From contig NW_020312061.1 of NCBI RefSeq assembly GCF_002999335.1, forward strand, positions 60,946 through 124,945: 64,000 nucleotides of DNA, written 5' to 3'. Position numbers and translations under genes: made by a program. This DNA comes from Cyclospora cayetanensis (lineage: Eukaryota > Apicomplexa > Conoidasida > Eucoccidiorida > Eimeriidae). The notes under the pieces were generated by a model, which saw only the letters and a list, made by a program, of their open reading frames with translations, had not been told where the DNA came from and did no database searches. Numbering within the stretch: the stretch's first letter is position 1; every line of letters begins with the position of its first letter. Below, piece after piece: positions 48,644 to 62,816 of the stretch.

Positions 48644-51323
48644 ATGGCTATGTGAAGGTGTTTCCCTAGCAGTAGTTGGACGACGGGTGCATGCAGCAGG
48701 AATAAGGTTTAGGTAGGAGGGAGGCGTGTCACTGGCGGTGCGCGCATTTTCGGTAGTGTGCCTACTGTGCCGCGAAAAGGCCGCTCTCTTCATGGGCTGT
48801 GCGCAGCCGAGATGCTGCTGGAACTAAGTGCGCATCTTCTTCGCCTATCAGCACTCCAGCAGATTTGGTTTATCACTGAAATTGGGGTGCCCATGACGAG
48901 CCCTCGAGATGTGGCCAGCTCTTTTTGCGAATCACAGACTACTTGCTTCGTGTTGCTACACGATGTTGGCCCTCGGCTGTGTGTCCAGAGTCGAGCTGCC
49001 GTTTGAAGTGATCGAGGTTCTGTGCCACTATAGTTTGCGGGATGTTCCGTGTATGGGGCTGTTTCATCCTGCAGGGCTTCCCTGAGGTCCTCAGCCGCCA
49101 GTGTATGCGAGCAGAACAGAGGGATGGGGGGCATGCGGCTCTGCTTGCCGCCTCTGTGCCGCTTTAAACTCGATTAGTTGATTTCGCCGCCACGGTATCG
49201 TGCATCAGTGAGAAATGTATAGCATGGCGTCCAGCGGGCACGGGCTGTCCTGCGTGAGGCATGTGACTACCGTGGCAACAAAAAGCCGATATTGAATTGC
49301 GCCTTGACCTCTGCATTTCCTCTGGGATGTTTGTGAGATCCTTTTAGCCCCAAACTTAGTATTATCGCTTCGTGTTACGCCGTTAAAATCCCTTGATAAG
49401 GAGCTTTCTTCATCCTTTCCTTGCTCGCGTCGCACCAATTGGTTCCGGCATCAGGAAAGGGAGAGCCACAGCCAAGATGCGTTTTGCCTGCCTTCGGATA
49501 TCACCCAGCATTCGGTGCCAGCAGCCCAATAATTTCAGCTCCAATAATGTATATTAGAGCTGCAGTTCAAATGCTCGTGTTGGATTTCTGTCGCCGTCGA
49601 CCGCCCGCCCTCGTAGGGTGGGCGCCAGGGTAGCAGAGGCTTTCTCCCCGAAGCCTTCCGTGCACAGCTGCTCCGCGCACAGGTCAGAGCCTCCATGAGT
49701 ACAGCATTTAGCAAGGCCCAGTGTGCAAGAAGTCGCGCACCCTTAATTGTGTGGAACTGGTGTAAAAGAAAGCGCGTACTCGTAGGCTTGTCCCCTCTAC
49801 TGCATCCGTTGCAGCGGACTACCCCTCGGTACTGCCTAACCCCTCCAACTGGCTACAGTGTGACCAACCTTCCCCTGTTGCTTCTAGAGAAGTCTCAGTC
49901 TCTAGCTGTCTGCGTTCGCAAGGCCTTACCTCATGTAGCCATAGTAGCGACCGCTCAACCGGAGGAGGCATAGAGAACCGCAGTAGGGACAGCTCCACGC
50001 AGCACAAAGACGCAAGCCATATCTAGAAGTTGCGAGGTCGACCAATAGAGCAATAGCGAGACAGTCTTGATAGGAAGACACTGCAACACGATAGGGTATT
50101 CAAGCCAAATCTAAAAGTTGCGAGGTCGACCAATAGCGCAATAGCGAGACAGTCTCGATAGAAAGAAACTGCAACACGATAGGGTATACAAGCCATATCT
50201 GAAAGTTGCGAGGTCGACCAATAGAGCAATAGCGAGACAGTCTTGATAGAAAGACACTGCAACACGATGGGGTATACTGTCGCTTGACGCGAAAGCCTCT
50301 GCCTGAGGTTTCGGGGGAAGTCATGAAATAAAAAAATGACTGTATACTCTAAGAAAATGCCGTATAAGTGGGGCAAAGAGAGGCCAGGCATTGCTGCTCG
50401 GGTTAGTAGAAACCACATTTGTTACGAGGCATACTGTGCCGGTGGACGGACGAAGGGGCGCTCGGGGGCGCAATGAAGGTGTACATCCTTTGAAGTATCT
50501 TAGACGGAAATATCGAGAAAATGTATTATTAATGTATTATTTTTACAGCCTCCTCTAGGTGGCTCTTTTTTAAGGATCTTTCCATTGGATGCCTTTGGGG
50601 AGGGCCCCCGCCGACCACTGCGTTGTGGTCTGTCTGAGCGCTGCTAACATTGTCTTTGAAGGTTTCTCCTGTGAACCTAACAGTGTGCTTTTTAGGGTTC
50701 TTCTGTTCGTTTGCTTCTCATCCAGCTGTGCAAATGCCGGAGCTGAATTGACTAGACAGCTGGAAGCCCCCTTCCCTCCCCCCCTCTGGAAAGCCCTCAA
50801 CCCTCGGCTAGCCACGGGAAAAGATTACGTTTCAAGGTTACGTCGGTGTGGAAGTTAGTCTGACATGCATGTTTATTCCTGCATTACGGCTCCTTCAAAA
50901 GAGCCCCTTAGGACAAAGCAGCTACAGTAAAAGTATGCGCGGCTAAAAGCTGCGAGTGGAGTGGTTCCGTCCACTCATGTAGAAGACATTTTTTGAGTCC
51001 ACATATGCATGCAGAGACAGAATTCATGACTCAGAAGCCACCCCCCAGCTCTCAGTGGAACAAGAATTACTTTCAAAGAATGCGAGTGCAGCAGTCGTGA
51101 CACAACGCCTCCTTTGCTGGATACCGCATGCACAGGCGGCCACATCAGCTTAGAGCAGCTGACCCTCGTTTAGCGCGTGTGTTTCAAGGGCCCATGGAAG
51201 CCTCCTAGCTGCTGTAGCACATTCTGCAGCAGTTTCCTCCGGAAACCTCTGGGCTTGCATGGCATTCTGCAGACACAGAGCGCGGGGACTCCCTCCCTTG
51301 CCTCTCCCCGCAGCACAGGCACC
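48644..51323. other. Intergenic, contains 88-bp tandem repeats
   Basis: No supported exon. An open frame at 48758-49006 has no motif. The 88-bp tandem array is at 50014-50277. The stretch to 51323 is the probable promoter region of the nine-exon coiled-coil gene. Confidence 0.45.
50014..50277. repeat. Three tandem 88-bp units
   Basis: Units start at 50014, 50102 and 50190, each exactly 88 bp and beginning AAGCCATATCT or a close variant. The core GTTGCGAGGTCGACCAATAG is shared. A handful of substitutions and no indels separate the copies. Units 1 and 3 share variants (AGAGCAATAG, AGTCTTGATAG) that unit 2 lacks (GCGCAATAG, AGTCTCGATAG). The flanks do not continue the period. Confidence 0.97.
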
Positions 51324-54300
51324 ATGGATCAACAGCTATCCTTCATGCTCGCACTAGCGTCCGAGCTCATATATGCAGACTGGGGTGCTGGTAGGCCTCT
51401 CCGGCAGCACGGGGGGTGGATTGAGGAACTGCCCCTGGAAGAGGGCTCCACCCCCAGCGGTTCCTCGACGCCTCTCTCTGAGCCTTCCCAGGAAGAACTG
51501 GCTGTGTCTGTCTCTGCTAGCGCTTCGTTGAAAGCCTCTGCACATGCAGCACCAGAACGGAAGTTTGTTAGAGAAATGGCTCACCAGGCGCCTATTCACG
51601 ACAGTAGGCAGCGATTCCCCCTCCCCCAGACTCCCTGGGTTTCTTAGTGTTTGTCCAGTCGGCAAATGAGAGAGGATCCACCCGCCCTCCCCCATTTTTT
51701 TGATTTTCTAAGAGGAAGGGGTAGCTGCCTCCAAAGTGTATGCCTGGTGCAGACTTGAAACAAGTTGGGGCCTATTTGCCTCTTTTGCTTGAAAGCATGT
51801 GTGTGCACTCCTGTGGCTTCCCGCTTGGACTGGCTGCTGCTACAGCCGAATCTCTCTGTCTCTTGCTCTGCGATGCATATTGTATTTCTCCTTTTTTTGG
51901 CTTGCTTCAGTGCTGGCCCCCCAGCGAGAGTCCCGAGCCCTGGAGAGTGCCCGAACGCTTATAGAGCAGCAGAAAGAGAGGATCGAATCTCTAACAGAAA
52001 CAGTGATGCGACTACAGCATACCAAAGGAGATAGCCAGGTGAGGCTTCAAAAGGACCTGCAAGTGTACATCCACGAGAACCAAAGGCTCCGACTTCAGCT
52101 CGATTCCATGAAAGCTGAGATTGCTGCTCTTGAGCAAGTCAGACACAGGGAAGAAAAGGAAGTGCAGGAAGTCGTTGAGGCCCTTGCAGCAGCTGAAAAA
52201 GGCATCGCCGACAGAGACTCTCTCATAAAAAGACTGCAGGTATGCTGTGAATTCGGCTTACAGCTTTACGCTAGAGGGTGTGGCGCTTTGGTTTTCATGT
52301 TGGAGCTCGTATTTTGTTATTTCGTGCTCCACAGAGAGAAGATAAAACAGCGGAAAACGAGAAACTTAAAGAGGACCAGCAGCGACTGCTTACGCGCCTA
52401 AGCAAGCTGCAGAAGCTGACGGGCACAGCAGGAGATGAGTCGTATGAAGGACGCTCTCCAGAAGACGTAAGAGAGTCGCTATAGTTCATTCTAGAGACCC
52501 TTTAAGGGCGTTGCGGGCCATGCCTGGTTGTAGCTAGGCACCTTGCTGGCGTATTCGCAAGCATACAAGCTAGCCAGGCAGAGAGCACTGCCGAACAGGA
52601 TAGCTGGGAGGCTGGAGTTCCCATCTCCCAATGGACTGGGCAGTTGTTCTCTGAGGTCTTAGGCATCATTTTATGAGAGGGCAACTTTCTGCCGGCTCTA
52701 CGTTGCTGGTGCGTTTGGTTGAAACTTCAGCTGGCGGAGCAGCTCGTAAAAGTCCAGAGGGAAGTGGAGCTGCACAGAGGGACTACACGGCAACTAGGTC
52801 ACACTACGGAGGGTGCGTCTATCCCGAAGAATCGGGCAGTGCCTGCTTGTTTGTTGACTCTCGTGCATGTTACTCTGACTGCATGCGCACTGGAGGCCTC
52901 CCACCATTTGAAAGGCAGGAGGAACTCCTCCTCAAGGGGCCAAAGACGCAACAGCTGAGTCTATCTGTAATCTCCGGCTCCTTTTTGTGCCGTTCCTCCT
53001 TGAACACTTCTTTTGGTGCTCGTATGCACTTCTGCTCGGCCGTAGGCGTGTGCGGTGTCTGGACAGCTAAGCTCACGTGCATGCCTGCATGCAAGCCCTC
53101 TCTGATGGGCACATGCCTGCATGCAAGCTCTCTTCTTCATCGACCCCCGTACACAGTGCTGTTTGTAGAGGCGCATGCGTGCGCCCTGGCAACGAACATG
53201 CTACGTTCATTACACCTTTATCTCCTGTGCTGTCTTCGGTTGGGTTGCAGAGCTCCGGATCTCCAAGATGTGCCTCGTACAAGCAGAAGCGTAAAGCATC
53301 CCTGCAGTTTCATGCCGCTTGAAGCTACATAAAAATATGCCCTAAGCGTCCTTGCTTTAGAGCGTTGCGTTCGAAGTGGACTAGGCTATTTTCGTAGCGT
53401 GGAACGGCGCTTCAGTCCTTTAGCTTTGGGACATAAGAGTCGTTGTTTATTTCCTCTGGAGTACAAGAAGCAAGAGACATAGAGAAATCGATGCTTGGTT
53501 GAGAGGCTCTTGAACTGAGACCTCATGACATAGGGTCCTATGGGCGCTGTGTGCAGGAACCTGCTAGAGGGGCAGAAGCTCATTGAAGAGCAACGCGCAG
53601 AGATCCAAAGGCTCTACAAAATTGTAGGGCTGTTTTCTGCTTCTTCATGCTCCCTCCTTTCTTTTCCCTAGTGGCATGCTCTACAAAGTCTGGTGAGTCT
53701 GGTACAGGGTTCACGGCTTGTATCTGGACTGGTAGTGAGTTTGCTGTGTTTTATGTTAGGTAGAGGCCCTCAACAGAGAGAAGGCTTTAACGCCACCGGT
53801 GGTGCTGACGCTGCCAAAGCACTTACGGGGAGTTGGAATAGAGCAGCTCGAGGCTCTCTCTACCAAAATGGGCCAAATCTTGCAGGCCCTAGACAGGGAA
53901 CGGAAGAGTAAGGGTTTGGACGTGCAGCTGAGGGTGAACATTGTTGGGATAAGGCTGTAGGGGTCGTGGCAGCGAGGCGGAGAGGTGGAGCGGCGGCAAG
54001 AAGAGCTTTTAAGCGGAAGGCAGCATTAGAGGAGGAAGGGGAGCGACAGCGGCGTTTTTCTCTCTGTGCTGAGCAAGCAGAGTCTCTGAACCTGTTTTGA
54101 TCTTTGTTGCTCTTGTCGGTGCGCAGTGGCCGGAGCCGATGAGAGGGAAGAAAGGACCTCAATGGCTCTTTTACAGCAACGCATGATGGAAGAACAGCAA
54201 GCCCTTCTTAAGCGGCAAGTGTCTGATGTCTCCTGCACGAGTTCCCTCGCAAGTCCTTTCATGTGGACCCTACGGACCACCGTCTCGCGCTGCCTCTTGT

Positions 54301-54538
54301 TAATCCCAGCGTAGCTGCACTGCGCTCCCTCAACAATTTGCTGGGAAAGGCTCAGCAACTGCACTCCTCTAAAAGCCTTGAATGCCCATCTTCTACTGTG
54401 TTCTCTCTGCCGTTTTACTCAGCCTCTTGGAAAATGTAGATCGACTTGGAGAACGTGGCCCGGAAAGAGGAGAATCCGTCGGTGTTACCCTGCTCGCCAG
54501 TAGCTAGACAGCTAGCTAGCCAACCAGCCAGCGGCTAG
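51324..54538 (+). CDS. Nine-exon coiled-coil protein
   Basis: Exons 51324-51603, 51911-52239, 52335-52466, 52731-52797, 53251-53290, 53557-53623, 53760-53907, 54127-54218 and 54440-54538 join in phase throughout, with GT donors and AG acceptors, to give 417 residues. Residues 1-95 are Ser/Pro/Glu-rich. From about residue 95 nearly everything is predicted heptad coiled coil: LIEQQKERIESLTETVMRLQ, HENQRLRLQLDSMKAEIAAL, LAEQLVKVQREVELHR, LIEEQRAEIQRLYKIVEALN. A short break follows with LTPPVVLTLPKHLRGVG, then LEALSTKMGQILQALDRERK and LLQQRMMEEQQALLKRQ. I do not recognise the family. A structural role in centrosome, conoid or inner membrane complex is guesswork. It lies 541 bp upstream of the tandem PH gene on the same strand. 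Confidence 0.75.
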
Positions 54539-55079
54539 CCAATGGCCCGCACAGCTGTCTCAGGGTCTGGGATTTGCATGGATGTGCTGCTGTGTGTGAA
54601 CAGTGGAAGATTGATGGGGCTTTCTTCTACTCTGGTAGGTCCTCGGCTAGGCGCCGACTTGCATAAAGTGCTTGTAAAGCTGGTAAAGAAGCAAATATTG
54701 CTGGGGGGTATTTATATGCCTCTCAGTTGGGCACCTGCGCTCCTCTGCTGATTTCTGACGCCTAGAGCTGTTGACCTTGGGCCTGAAGAGGGAGAAGCAG
54801 AAGCCGTGGGAAGGCAGGGCTGTATGTAGCGCGTGCCAGAGAAAATTGGCTTGACACGTGCAATGTGTGTCAAATCATGCGCAGGGACTGTGTTGCACGC
54901 GTGCATGGGGTCGCTTGACGAGGATGCAGACTATAGAGAGAAGTGAAGCCCTGCCAGTTGAATTACCGCTCGCGCTGCTATCGTTCTGTCGTTGTGGTTG
55001 TTGCTGCCGCCCCGCCTGAGAAGAACATCGATAGTACTTCTTTCTTGCGTTTTTTTCTCGTCACCTGACCTGCAGAGTC

Positions 55080-58000
55080 ATGGCTGTCAATGAGGGCACA
55101 CTTCTTCTCTTCTACGATCCAAAGGTAAGCAAGAGAGCGACGCTCAGTGTTTGCAGGGGCGGCGATTTCCCGCAGACAGGTGCAAGTGCTTAGCGTTCGT
55201 ACAATTTTCGCACCGCTGCTGATGGCCGTTTTCCACGGGAGTATAGGCAGCAACACAACGCACGACACTGGGGTTGTCACAAGGATCGCCGGAACGGATT
55301 GATGAGCGGCTAACAAATAAGCATAAAAACAATTCTTTTTTGCTTTCTTTCTCCCAATCTCCCCCTTCAACAGGATGAAGAACCCACAGCCATTCTACGC
55401 CCTCACAAGATGGTGAGCCTTGCCGTCGATGCCTCCGCCCTCCTCATCACTCTGGTCTATGAGCCTTGCCCAGGGCGCTCGGAGACCCACTTGTTCAAGT
55501 TCAGGACTGATGATGAGCTGAACAGGTACGAATCAATTCCAAGAGCTAGCCACCCCAAGACTAGCCAACGACAAGTCGAAAGATCCAGCTACCCAAACCC
55601 TTTGAAGAAACATGACAATGACACAGACAGGACTTCAGCTCATGATCGACAGTCGCAGCCGCGCAGCCTCCGCTAGCGAGGATGCGTTGCGCATACTTAC
55701 CTTATGGCCAGGCAGTTCGCCACCAGAGGCCACATTCTGGGTCATACACATCCATCCAAATACTCACACACACACACACATACACATACACATACGCACA
55801 CACACACACACACACAAACACCCCTGCAGCTACGTTTGCATTGCCTGGCGCTGCCAATGGAGCGTTGCTGTCGGTCTCCAGAATAATTCAGTTTGTTTGC
55901 CTGAAGTCCTACGTTCCTACGTTTTATTCAGGTGGCACCACGCGCTGGCATACGGTGGTTTCATTAGGGCCGCTCCCCTGGTGCAGCATGCATTGCCTCC
56001 CTCGACAGTCCCACCATCCAGCGAGGCCCCTTCAACACCAAAGGAAGAAATGCTAGTATCTGTGAACATCCCAGATGGCATTGGCTTTGACGGTGCTCCA
56101 ACATTATCAGAAAGGCACAACGGGTCCGACAGAACAATGAAGCTGCTGCTGCTTCTACTGGCGGCGCCGCTATTCTTACTAACACTGCGGGTGGCGTGCA
56201 AGTGTTTGCTGATGCATGCTGATAATACAAGCCATTGCTGACTGAGTCAAGGGCAGGAAAACTGTTTTCTGTTACGAATGTGTGCTTACAGACGGGTGCA
56301 GTACAACAAGGCGCGAAATATGCTTATCATCACGTCACCTGAAGTAATTATGTGCCCTCGGCGCTCACTTGCATCCCTTTTGCCGTTTCCCTCACTGAAG
56401 GATAACTTCAGCTTGCAGAAAGAAACACTAGGGCTTTGGGAGTAGGGCACGGAGAGGGTCGGCGCACTATAGGGTGTCGACTATAATTGGGTGTCTAGCC
56501 CAATACAGTTCATATGCCTTAACACGTCTGTCTATGCCCGTTTGCATGCAAGCATGGCCACATACACCACAGCATTAGCCCATCCATGCAGGCATATATT
56601 CTGTGCTTCAATCTTTCTTTTGTATCCATATGCATAGACCAATATGTAGTGATGTGTATCCCTTCTCTGTACACGAATGACGCTGTATTCCTCTGGTTAA
56701 CTCAATGTAGGGTGCAATAAGGGCAACCTCCACGCGCACGCGTATGATTCATCCACTTGTTCCTTTTATGCAGCGTTGCGCCGCATATACCATATATGAA
56801 GGTACGACTGGCTACCCCTAGTCTTTGTTTTGTGCGTTCATAGGATCCTACGCCCCTGCTGATTCCCTGCGCACAAGTCAAGATGACTCCTGACACGCAG
56901 CAGCACTCCATCGTCTTCAAATCAATTGAGGCAAGAAACTGAAAGTCATGAGACCCTTTATGTTGCGGATGGATTGGCATTCTCTGAGTTTTGCACGAGC
57001 TCCAGCCTCCTTTGCCGTCGCATAGAGCGCGTAGCCATGCCGCTTCCAAAAGTCCGTGCTCATCTTTCGCTTTGGCTTATTGTATTTATAGGAGCCCGAT
57101 AAAATGATCACTGTAACCACTCAGGAGAAATTCTACTTGGAGTATGTCTTTCCCCTGCACCCAGCACACTGCAATTCTTTGTTAGGGGGGGCATAGCGAA
57201 ACAACTGGTGGATCTGAGCAGCATCTGGGCGTCTCGGCATCCCCTAATGTGCCACTTCTCAGACTCGTGGGGATCGCTGGGATGGGTACATACTATCAAC
57301 CTCCGGTGAAAAAGGAACCACCACCACCCCCCGTTGCAAAACCTAAGGAACCTCCTCCGCCGCCTCCTGAACCGGAAGCTCCGGAAGAGAACGAGTGCGT
57401 TAGCTATCGCATGTGCCTTGTGTGTGGCATAATGGCACAGTTCTGCCGGCCTGTCTCTCCAAATATACTGCCTTTCCTTATTGGAGGCTGCGTGCACTTT
57501 CCCCAATCAGTAGGAGGTAGCTGCACGTGGCAGCCGGGCCAGTGCTAGGCATGTGTTACGCCGTTTTTCAGGCTCTTTGTTATTCGGGATGGCAATTTGA
57601 TGCTTTTCGAAAAACAAGGGGATACTCAGCCAATCCTGAAGCTTCACCATGCGGACTGCGCAACGCATGCAGACCCAGTCAACCGGGAGTTCATTATTAC
57701 GCACAAGGTAAGAGCGTTCTTATAGCAATGCATTTACTGTTGCACCTGATGCAGTGGTTCATATTATATCTGGGAAGGGGCTTGCTTTCGGCCTAAGTGG
57801 TTAGGGCTCACGGTTTCAAAGTTCTGCTTGGCGAATGAGTGAGTGGCGCAATGGATAGCGCGTCGCCCTCCGGAGGCGGAGGTTGCGGGTTCGAGTCCCG
57901 TCTCGCTCTATCTCTTTCTATCTCCACTGATTGTAACTGATTTTTGCATTTCTTTATTTGCCATATAGATTCAATCATTACTATTTTGCAAATATTCCGT

Positions 58001-61000
58001 TTTGCGAAAGGCCTTGTACCCCACAACTCCACGTTAGTGTGCACTCGTCGTGCCTATGAGCTGCACCTGCAATGGGCAATGGGCGCTCTCTTTGTTGCAT
58101 TGGAATTTTTGTCTGGTTTATGAAGCGATATTTTATGTTATCATCTTTCTGCTACAATGGTAGAATGCTCTCAAATGGATAGATCAGGAGCATGTGGACG
58201 ACCCCTCTGAAATTCCCGACCTTGCAGTCCATCGATACATCTTGTGTGGCCTACGCGTTCTCTGCAGCCAGGGACCCCCGAAGAAGAAACCTACGTCTTT
58301 TCCTTCCCAACTGACGATGTCTACAAGGGGTTTGTTTTTCACTTCCAATCTTAATTGCATTTCAAGTTGCTGGTGCCAGATATGGGTTTATTTTATAGGC
58401 ATGTCCCTTCGAAGTGTGACCGAGTCATAAGGCACCTTCGAGCCTCGAGCCGGGTACCCCTTTAGAGGAGATTACTCTTATTCTTTACCTTTACCTCAAA
58501 TGCTGCCTCACATCGGGGGACTGTTTTTTCTGCAGCTGGTACAAGAAGCTTGAGGAAAATGGATTCCTCATGAGGAAGGGTGACCACAGGGGACGCACTT
58601 CAAATCAGTGAGTTGTACATGAATGTCCACTGAGTTGGAATCTCCGTGTAAAAACGGTCTTATATCATGGCTTTCTCATGTGTGGTATTGCCCGTGACAG
58701 CGATAGTAAGGGGTCGTTGAGTAGACTTTCGAAAGCGGCTGAAACGAGTAGCTTCCGATTAGTTCGTTCCTCGTTCGTTGGCGCAAGGCGTGCATCCACT
58801 CCAACTGGCTCAGATTAAGCGTTAGTGTGCGTTATTTAATTGGTAAACAAGCCTACCGTTTTTTCTGGCGGGTCCATGAGGCTATAGCCGTTTTGTCTCT
58901 GGACGTCTTTCAGGGTTGGTGTGGTATCTAAAGGCTGTCTCGATCTATATAAGGACTACGGAACCCCCGACGCCAAACCCGTCATAACACTTATGGCCAA
59001 CAGATGCAGCGCAACCGCCAGTAGGGAGCGAAGAGAAATACGCATCATCCATACGGTTAGGCTTCTATTCGCGCCTCCCCCCGTAGACCCCTGTACACCA
59101 GCGAACGGCCAAAAGCCCTCCAGTGTCCGAACACCTTCTCTGCTCCATGCTTCTTTCTCTTCCTGCGCGGACGTGTGCAGAGCCCTACTGGGAAGCGCGA
59201 ACGCATTACGTTGGATTGCGCAAGTGTGGCAGAGTTCGACAGGTAGGGCACCTCTCGGCCATTTCACAGCGTGGTGCCCATATTAAATCAACAAAAAATC
59301 TCATTTTCTTTGCAGCTGTATCTTCTTCGCCCCTCTTCCCAGCTGCAAGCTCTCCTTTATGCTGCAAGGAACTCGGAACGAAGGTTTGTGCAGCATCTGC
59401 GACCAATCCCTTGCCTCCCCCCTGTATGCGACTGTCTCGCTGCAGATGGAACGTAGCTCTGCATTTCGGTAACTTCCTCAAGGGCGATGACATTACAGGC
59501 ACGGGATCCCAGACTTACGCAAATCTATCTAAGTGCGTTCAAGCAGGTGCTATTGATTCCACGTTCCATACCTGCGCTTTGACCTTTCTATCCTTCTCTT
59601 TTGGGAGCTTCCCAAAAGGAAGCACTCATAGATGCACTGGACTGGACCGTCTCCTTCGGGGAAGTAGGGTCGCTCATGGAGCGCAAGAGGGCACTTCCAG
59701 TCTTCTTTTCCCTGAAGTGGGGACCTACTTAATCGAGACCCCCAGGTGTTCGTAGATATATCAACGAATCTACGTGCGTATGGCTATCCGTTTTCTCGTT
59801 TTGATTAGTCCGAGGAGTACTAATTGCATAAAAACGTCATTCTTGTTGACGAGTCTACTTGCTCTACTTCAGATACGTGTTCCCCATCAATCTATTCGAA
59901 GACGCCTCTGGAAGAAGGTCGGCCCTGCTCATCGAGAACCGGATGATTATGCTCTTCCCAGCCCCCGAAGTAAAACACCCTTCCCCTTCCCCTTATCAAG
60001 TAGTGCACCCTTTCGGCTGTTCCTTGGTTACCCTGAAATCTGCACCTGCTTTTGTCACCCGCTTTTGCTCTGATCCATGACTGAAGCTTCGACTCCCGCA
60101 ACGAAACCGGTGACATCCCAGTCTGTACACTTGAGTGCTTCTCTTCTCAGGCCACGGAGCCAGTCCTCTGCGCCTCCGCAGACGAGTGCGAAGTGCAGCC
60201 AGTAATTAGTCAACGCAAGCTCAGAGTTTATGTGAATGTAAGTCATTGGTGCTGGTGGCGGCAGTGGTGACGGTGGTGATAGCCGTTTGGAGAGAAATTA
60301 TCAAGGCGGGCTTCCAGAGCTTATGGGCAGTCTGTGAAACCGTAGAGGCACGACAGTCTAGGGAGGGAACAGGGATGGCTGCTTTTCTATACCCCATTCA
60401 GCTCGCCATAGAGAGTGTGTGTGGAGAGGAGAGGCTCAAGAGGTGGCTGTCTCTCTGTCTGGACTGGCTAGATCCCTAAAAGCACGAAGCCTTAACCGGT
60501 AAAAGTTACTCTCGCGTGATGGGCATTTATTTTGCAGCGCAACACCAGACGGGAGCAGCGTATTGACTTCATCCTTGCACTTGCTAAAGACTTTGACAGG
60601 TGCAGCCCGACGCTCAATTCGGGACTTGGGGTTTACCAGTTGGATTTTGGGGATTGTCGTCACATGCAAGTGTTAGTGACCGTTCCGCAGGGTCGTGTGC
60701 TTTCTGGTTTTCCGACCTTGCACAAGTACATGCTGCTGTCTCTGCATCCCGCGTTTGCTCCTGGTTTGCTTATGGTGGGGTTCCCTAAAGAAGAAGTGCC
60801 ACCTCCGAATGTTCGACGCTTCAGGATTTGGTGTGTCGCACAGGTATGTTGCAGCATGCCAGAGAGACTCCTTTCCAGAAGCTGTCGTTGGGAAGCCCAT
60901 GGAGAAGCTGGCAATCCCGTAAGGCCTTTCGCGTTCCCTTTCCTTCCGCTTCGATTCGCCCGTCCTTGCCACTGTCTCTTCTCGGCACGGTGCTCTTCTC

Positions 61001-62816
61001 GTTTTGTCGTGTTCGCCTTCACGACACTACCTTTGCTGCATAATCAGCGCAGAGAACGTGAAGAACACGTTAAAAGAACCACGGAGGGCGAGAGACGTTA
61101 TAGGTACCCCTCTAGCACGGGGTCTATCTTTGAAATGTAGTTTGGAGAAAGAAGTCTGTGGGTTTTGCTTCCTCACAGATTCGTTTTGTGTAGAAAAGGC
61201 TTGATGGCTGTCTACAAAAGCAAATTCGTGCGTTTCCTGTTGTCAATCTTCCTCTCGACTCCTCTGAGGCATCCCCGGCAGCGTCTCTCTGCCTTTTCTC
61301 CCCTTCCCCTCCTTGCCGTTCCTCGGGCTTCTGGTCCACCCGTCTACTGACACCTTCACCTGTGCGCGACGCAGCCTGGCCTGATGGGGTGTTTGTCGCT
61401 GCGTGCAGCATGCGCATGCGGAGCTGACTTTGGAGGTCCCAAAGTACACCTTGTCCGAGGAGGGCACCTCCTACGTCTTCGTATCCAATGAGGGAAAGGT
61501 GCGAAATTCTCAGCTAGCTCAAACTTTTTTCAAGTTTCCGCAGTAGCACATAATCAGCCTTTGTGTGCACTCACAGGGACATATCGCCATAATGAACAAC
61601 GCAGGTGTTCTTATGCTGTTCAGGATATAGCAAGAAGAGTGAACGTGATTTCTGCGGATTCACGAGAGAGGTATGCTGGATGAATGTCATTTTCTGCACT
61701 AAGCAGGGAAAGACTTAATGCAGCATACGGGGAATTTCACTAGCTGGACAATCGAGAGTCATGTCTGCTGCCGCTGCCTTCTTGCTGCCGCTGTTACTAT
61801 TGTTGCATTATGACTAGAAAACTAGCAGTCCTCTATAAATAGAGGTATTCAGGCATGCATCCGCCCTGTCATTACGAGATGGACGTGTAAATGGGATACT
61901 TCGTGTGTGCGAAAGTACGCCGGCGATCTGGTGCTTGTTTCTCCTTGAAAGAACTTTTTATGAGATCTGATACTTTGACGGGATTCGAAATGTGCCAAGC
62001 CTCAACAGTCATACTCTCTGTGCATTTGGAATTCTTCGCACCAGTTTGTTTCAATGCGTTTCGGAATAACTCTCTTGCTGGTGTGCCTGCACTTACACAT
62101 GACTAATGCATGCAGATGGGAGTTCGCCCTAAAGCTAGCAGGTTTTAAAGCCTTTTCCAAGTCTCAACTGCCCAGATTTTTCTTCCCTCAAATCATGTGA
62201 GCTGCAGAGTAACACATTACCACCTCCACTGTGATCCTTGCCCCATCATATCCTGCTATGCACACATATAGTGTTTGTTTTACATGAAGCGCGCATTGCT
62301 AAGGCTAAGGAAACGCCTAATGCACCGCGAACCAGTCCAACTGGCTTCTTTTCTTGCGCGTTGTGCATGCAGCTATGGATTTGTGGCGGAGGAAGCGGCG
62401 GAGCTGCGGAAGGACAGCTTCCTCGGTAGCGCCAGAGCTGCCCTCGGGCTTCTCCAGGCCAACAGAGAGGCCAGCAGGTCGGCCCAGCTCGACCAGAGCA
62501 TACAGCGCCCAGACGGGTAATGTGGCGATCCTAGTGCTCCATCCAGTCAAATGTACTCTGGGGCTCATTAGGGTTGCGGGCAGGTGGCAGGCTGTGGGAG
62601 CGCTTTCCCCTTTGGCAGTTCTTCCAAAACTCCTGGCACTTTACACTTGCCCATTCACAGTTTTCTTTTCCTCGCCTGCACAGCTACTTCAGCAACACCA
62701 CAACAGGTGCCTCTAAGGCCATTGGGTTAGATATTAAGTCAAATACGGAGCAGATGAGGACGGGGGGCCTCCAACTCGGTTTCTGGGTTATGTCGATGTG
62801 GTGGAACAGTATTTAA
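55080..62816 (+). CDS. Tandem PH-domain protein (about six PH-like domains)
   Basis: Twenty-four exons join in phase: 55080-55124, 55374-55525, 55932-56195, 56292-56343, 56844-56930, 57092-57141, 57263-57394, 57572-57707, 58268-58329, 58536-58607, 58914-59055, 59181-59225, 59316-59383, 59446-59532, 59873-59969, 60151-60237, 60538-60599, 60844-60918, 61179-61227, 61409-61498, 61624-61670, 62116-62160, 62373-62516 and 62684-62816, giving 740 residues. PH-like units lie at about 1-80, 154-232, 260-350, 350-445, 464-560 and 571-650. Recurring signs are a first strand (GTLLLFYDPK, GNLMLFEKQG, GCLDLYKDYG, GLMAVYKSKF) and a closing helix often led by Trp (RWHHALAYGGF, WYKKLEENGF, RRWNVALHF, RWEFALKLAGF). 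A Pro-rich linker sits at about 235-258. PH folds bind phosphoinositides or proteins, so a membrane-linked scaffold is likely. I know no name for it. Least certain are the ends of exons 3 and 12 and the true start. Confidence 0.78.
55765..55816. repeat. CA/TACACA microsatellite in intron
   Basis: Two short (CA)n runs separated by TACACATACACATACG lie in the intron between PH-gene exons 2 and 3. Confidence 0.9.
57837..57909 (+). tRNA. tRNA-Arg (anticodon CCG)
   Basis: A full cloverleaf can be drawn. The acceptor stem GAGTGAG (57837-57843) pairs with CTCGCTC (57902-57908) with one G-U. The D stem is GCGC/GCGC (57846-57849, 57858-57861) with loop AATGGATA. The anticodon stem TCGCC/GGCGG encloses loop CTCCGGA, so the anticodon is CCG at 57870-57872, reading CGG. 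The variable loop is AGGTT. The T arm is GCGGG-TTCGAGT-CCCGT, which contains the B-box GGTTCGAGTCC. The A-box is TGGCGCAATGG. There is no tRNA intron and CCA is not encoded. T-rich sequence follows (CTCTTTCT). The gene lies in the sense orientation inside the intron between PH-gene exons 57572-57707 and 58268-58329. Confidence 0.95.

Follow-up and report, generated by a model that had tools for sequence, protein, structure and literature searches.

Gene structure at the locus

The window analysed here is a 64,000-nucleotide stretch of Cyclospora cayetanensis DNA (contig NW_020312061.1), and it contains the complete gene of the protein annotated as cyc_02755 or LOC34619563 (Table 1). The product is the orthologue of an already known subunit of the preconoidal ring, ICAP16 of Toxoplasma, so the family is not new, and six predicted pleckstrin homology (PH)-like units stand in tandem in its C-terminal half. 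Reading phases were consistent through all 33 exons of the rebuilt model, and 30 of the introns start with GT and two with GC. A homologue was taken to cross a junction when a 13-residue stretch showed no gap and at least three identities, which is a low identity bar, and by this measure 32 of 32 junctions were crossed by at least two homologues, at least one of them from outside Cyclospora in each case, with support per site ranging from 2/6 to 10/10 rows. It is highly improbable that the array is an artefact made by joining exons of separate genes. The published models of the locus do disagree, and a Toxoplasma VAND entry labelled 202120A ends after PH1, but another genus supports every junction and ICAP16 is a single 1322-residue chain in its solved structure (PDB 9YA0).

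A previous sequence-only reading of positions 55080 to 62816 had proposed 24 exons, where the rebuilt model has 33. The ATG at 55080 that it used as the start is internal, being residue 439 within exon 12 with 438 residues ahead of it, and the last exon that it proposed (62684-62816) had no support, the frame having already stopped at the TAA at 62518-62520, where the cyc_02755 annotation ends likewise. The draft donor of exon 14 after LRVA was dropped; homologues close this exon at HNG, and the hydrophobic LLLLLLAAPLFLL stretch was therefore treated as non-coding. Two possible extra coding pieces (59317-59381 and 59620-59690) were also excluded, because their phases did not fit and homologues were without them. 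The two GC-start introns lie at 54215 (GCAAGT, after exon 8) and 56931 (GCAAGA, after exon 16).

The 33-exon model corrects both published models of the locus. The partial LOC34619563 annotation had zero mismatches to our model over 621 aligned columns, and comparison by eye indicated that it is without exons 1-12, 24, 28, and 30, while the cyc_02755 annotation (1072 amino acids, aa) is without the PH2 core and exon 32. The two public models of 51324-62520 thus skip different exons, so that PH2 or parts of PH4-PH6 are hidden.

Table 1 Features of the ICAP16 orthologue in the window
Feature	Position	Strand	Basis
Complete gene, 33 exons, 1106 aa, ICAP16 orthologue	51324..62520	+	Phases, splice sites, homologue-supported junctions, ICAP16 match
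Exon 1, N-terminal region, aa 1-93	51324..51603	+	Start identical to cyc_02755 annotation
Exons 2-9, predicted coiled-coil region, ~aa 95-402	51911..54477	+	AlphaFold helix in Eimeria homologue, hydrophobic periodicity
PH1, ~aa 411-516, exons 10-14	54613..55968	+	Sub-cut-off Pfam PH match, hhalign to PH4
PH2, ~aa 540-645, exons 14-18	56038..57305	+	PH-type fold match in low-confidence model
Pro-rich linker, ~aa 644-674	57300..57394	+	Sequence itself
PH3, ~aa 673-752, exons 18-21	57387..58569	+	Pfam pass alone, fold match
PH4, ~aa 748-848, exons 21-24	58555..59491	+	hhalign to PH1, PH3, PH5, PH6; conservation
PH5, ~aa 858-955, exons 24-28	59519..60877	+	hhalign to PH3, strand order in model
PH6, ~aa 962-1048, exons 28-32	60896..62167	+	PH-type fold match, hhalign to PH4
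C-terminal tail with conserved FFPQIIYGFVAEE segment, stop TAA	62168..62520	+	

Orthology to ICAP16

When the full model was compared with all solved structures, one match was found at E ≤ 1e-6, and this was ICAP16 (TGME49_202120). The alignment (E 1.3e-242) was collinear and placed model residues 80-1072 on residues 286-1284 of 1322, and from sequence comparison we conclude that the Cyclospora protein is related to ICAP16 along its whole chain. In both proteins the N-terminal half is coiled-coil-like and the PH domains lie in the C-terminal half, an architecture of the ICAP16 family that is predicted for the Cyclospora protein; Toxoplasma ICAP16 differs in having about 206 more residues ahead of the matched region. 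The homologue search gave nine proteins, including the two Cyclospora annotations, five Eimeria species, and Neospora, to which Besnoitia and a partial Toxoplasma entry were added. The gene is single copy in the assembly by a fast search that sets a lower bound, as all 13 matches at E ≤ 1 fell in C26:119207-123444, inside the ICAP16 gene.

A search for orthologues in Toxoplasma, Cyclospora, and Plasmodium had been suggested. The first two were found (ICAP16 and cyc_02755), whereas the Plasmodium-directed search, which covered 962 candidates, returned five proteins at E ≤ 10, every one of them coccidian. PBANKA_1419000 of P. berghei, listed as the ICAP16 orthologue and placed at an apical ring in ookinetes (PMC7951837), was not recovered by the homologue searches made here.

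ICAP16 is one of 20 proteins in the Toxoplasma preconoidal ring P2, with four copies per asymmetric unit, and its hyperLOPIT class is "PM - peripheral 2" (PMC12819142). It was located to the conoid-canopy ring and noted as "PH-like" (PMC7951837), and its recruitment partly depends on CGP (PMC12663574). In the structure its PH domains were not resolved, from which the authors infer flexibility, and ICAP16 apparently blocks the GAP domain of PCR5 (PMC12819142). The apical scaffold role suggested for the Cyclospora protein is supported by its orthology to a preconoidal-ring subunit. The earlier remark that each PH-fold protein of apicomplexans has a single such domain leaves out ICAP16, which was published with "pleckstrin homology domains" in the plural (PMC12819142).

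The predicted coiled-coil region and the PH-like array

The protein had been described as almost entirely PH, but the array makes up about 58% of it, and the 438 residues upstream of the former start are mostly predicted coiled coil. In the AlphaFold model of the Eimeria homologue, a helix covers residues 93-227, with pLDDT (predicted local distance difference test) values of 66-75 over 101-220. A heptad test showed a clear helical hydrophobic period at aa 95-240 (8 of 500 shuffles reached the value) and at aa 340-402 (14 of 500), and no clear period at aa 245-320 (156 of 500).

A tandem PH-like array is present, as had been proposed from the sequence, and this is based on the Pfam PH match, on profile comparisons between the units, and on fold matches in low-confidence models. 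The Pfam PH family (PF00169) matched the 735-aa draft protein with 54.3 bits against a cut-off of 25.1, and it matched 10 of 11 aligned homologues at E ≤ 0.1. When the units were scored singly, PH3 was above the cut-off, PH1 (E 0.0024, 18.8 bits) and PH4 were below it, and PH2, PH5, and PH6 gave no match. Profile comparison by hhalign tied together five of the six units: PH1 with PH4 (E 9.2e-7), PH3 with PH5 (E 2.8e-6), and PH4 with each of PH1, PH3, PH5, and PH6, all of which exceeded every shuffle. PH3 through PH6 are consecutive, with short linkers or none.

The AlphaFold models were low-confidence, built from 11 and 10 sequences, and were used for strand order and fold matching alone; since the Foldseek lists include many unrelated beta propellers, the VIA-align rows were relied upon. 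The structure-prediction check that had been suggested was positive in part: PH2, PH3, and PH6 resemble PH-type folds in these models, while PH1, PH4, and PH5 were not prominent in the fold-match lists, which barely test those three units. PH5, which has seven strands and then a helix in the model, is backed by profile comparison only. ICAP16 itself (9YA0) was absent among the best 50 fold matches listed, in every list. PH2 matched the split PH domain of PLCg2, whose structure is known in complex with Rac2 as well.

Among known systems, APH and the ISPs also bring a PH fold to the pellicle or the apical end of the cell, and PfAPH and TgAPH were present among the fold matches of the models. APH and the ISPs are acylated, have a single PH domain each, and differ from the Cyclospora protein in having no array. 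The top Foldseek rows for the second model were proteins with tandem PH folds, namely FARP1/2, centaurin alpha-1, and the FACT subunits Pob3, SSRP1, and Spt16, but these have about two PH units each and other functions, and identity in the rows was 9-17%.

A PF00169 search of the assembly gave four matches, none within the ICAP16 gene, which was missed because its coding sequence is split into short exons. The four matches lie elsewhere, at L003, L004, C361, and C264 (E 3.7e-8 to 9.0e-4).

Charge and conservation of the units

Charge was compared between homologues after rows covering less than 80% of a unit had been omitted. The first three units were acidic in all rows, with isoelectric points (pI) of 4.6-5.4 in PH1 and 4.5-6.1 in PH2 (seven rows each) and 4.4-4.7 in PH3 (nine rows), and PH4 and PH6 were basic in all rows, with pI 8.6-9.6 (10 rows) and 9.1-9.7 (eight rows), respectively. 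Conservation was highest in PH4, where nine rows from Eimeriidae and Sarcocystidae share 57 invariant positions out of 106, and the corresponding counts were 11/117 in PH1, 8/108 in PH2, 31/85 in PH3, 35/101 in PH5, and 23/111 in PH6. Nine of the invariant residues in the PH4 body are basic (R754, K755, R795, R802, R804, R805, K817, R818, and R820), and judged from the strand order in the low-confidence model they probably fall near inter-strand loops, the site at which lipid head groups are bound in PH domains. In the parts of the ICAP16 literature searched, the count of six units, the charge split, and the PH4 basic cluster were not met, although the domain count may be given in Extended Data Fig. 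8 of PMC12819142.

Identity to the Neospora and Besnoitia rows was 57-70% in PH3-PH5 and 19-42% in PH1, PH2, and PH6. This bears on the possibility that ICAP16 works as a glue of the ring, in which the coiled coil and the C-terminal tail would join neighbouring subunits and the PH-like units would be ligand-free spacers. The partly CGP-dependent recruitment, conoid formation without ICAP16 (PMC12663574), and the close spacing of PH3 to PH6 would suit such a role. Spacers, however, need no conservation of the kind seen in PH3-PH5, and the non-resolved PH domains (PMC12819142) argue against a packed role, so we regard this explanation as quite unlikely.

A possible membrane tether at the preconoidal ring

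Preconoidal rings are the start site of motility actin, and secretory organelles meet the membrane there. The full-length gene, the six mapped PH-like units, the charge split, and the named invariant residues bear on how these rings hold to the membrane. With a probability of about 0.5, we propose that in this ICAP16 orthologue the coiled coil locks into the preconoidal ring and the flexible six-unit array touches the apical membrane via its basic far end. By orthology the Cyclospora protein would sit in the same ring as Toxoplasma ICAP16; the ring would hold the protein by its coiled coil, and the array would project out of the ring as a mobile string. Based on the conserved charge split and the invariant PH4 basic cluster, the near half (acidic PH1-PH3) is predicted to avoid acidic lipid and the far half (basic PH4 and PH6) to bind it. 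By arithmetic on Toxoplasma numbers (about 46 repeats × 4 copies × 6 units), each ring would carry about 1,100 PH units, and with so many units, weak contacts could sum by avidity into a tether of adjustable strength or length that links the ring to the membrane.

Several points weigh against this proposal. Lipid binding by the array is a prediction from sequence, and the AlphaFold models behind the strand order are of low confidence. The classical phosphoinositide-binding PH motif, K-Xn-(K/R)-X-R at the domain start, was absent from five of the six units and present in PH4 only, where comparison by eye indicated that it is not kept in the aligned relatives, and a conserved lipid motif was rejected. 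The charge of PH5 was variable, with pI 4.9 in Neospora, 5.4 in the incomplete LOC34619563 row, and 7.6-8.7 in the other nine. In Toxoplasma, ICAP16 has a CRISPR score of -2.1 with "Normal" growth (PMC12819142), its loss has a mild effect on host invasion, and conoid formation proceeds without it (PMC12663574). Because CGP shares the PM-peripheral class (PMC12819142), this class may reflect the ring instead of the PH units. A role in tuning is a better fit to the mild loss phenotype than that of an essential anchor. The earlier idea that the array reads several phosphoinositide contacts is not supported in that form, given the acidic PH1-PH3 and the single unit with the motif.

The main rival to lipid contact is protein binding, in which the array would be an arm whose units bind ring partners and shield the GAP domain of PCR5, so that ICAP16 would gate the cycling of a small GTPase at the apical ring. 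We consider this somewhat unlikely. It is consistent with the acidity of PH1-PH3, with the match of PH2 to the PLCg2 split PH that was also solved with Rac2, and with the tandem-PH proteins that head the Foldseek list of the second model. The strongly basic PH4 and PH6 speak against it, and as the PH domains were not resolved (PMC12819142), the part seen over PCR5 is probably another portion of ICAP16.

The tether proposal could be taken further: about 1,100 units would form a brush that repels acidic lipid with its acidic inner half and grips it with its basic outer half. The ring would in this way gauge how distant the membrane above it is and in what lipid state, and would time apical secretion or conoid extrusion from this; this extension is speculative and we think it rather doubtful.

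Other features of the window

A tRNA-Arg with anticodon CCG lies at 57837-57909 (+), within intron 19 (57708-58267) and in sense orientation to the gene. It was the sole exact copy among four assembly matches, the other three being 89%, 89%, and 83% identical. Intron 13 contains a CA repeat (about 28 units, 55765-55821), and an 88-base unit is present in three tandem copies with 92% matches at 50013-50277, approximately 1 kb upstream of the gene.
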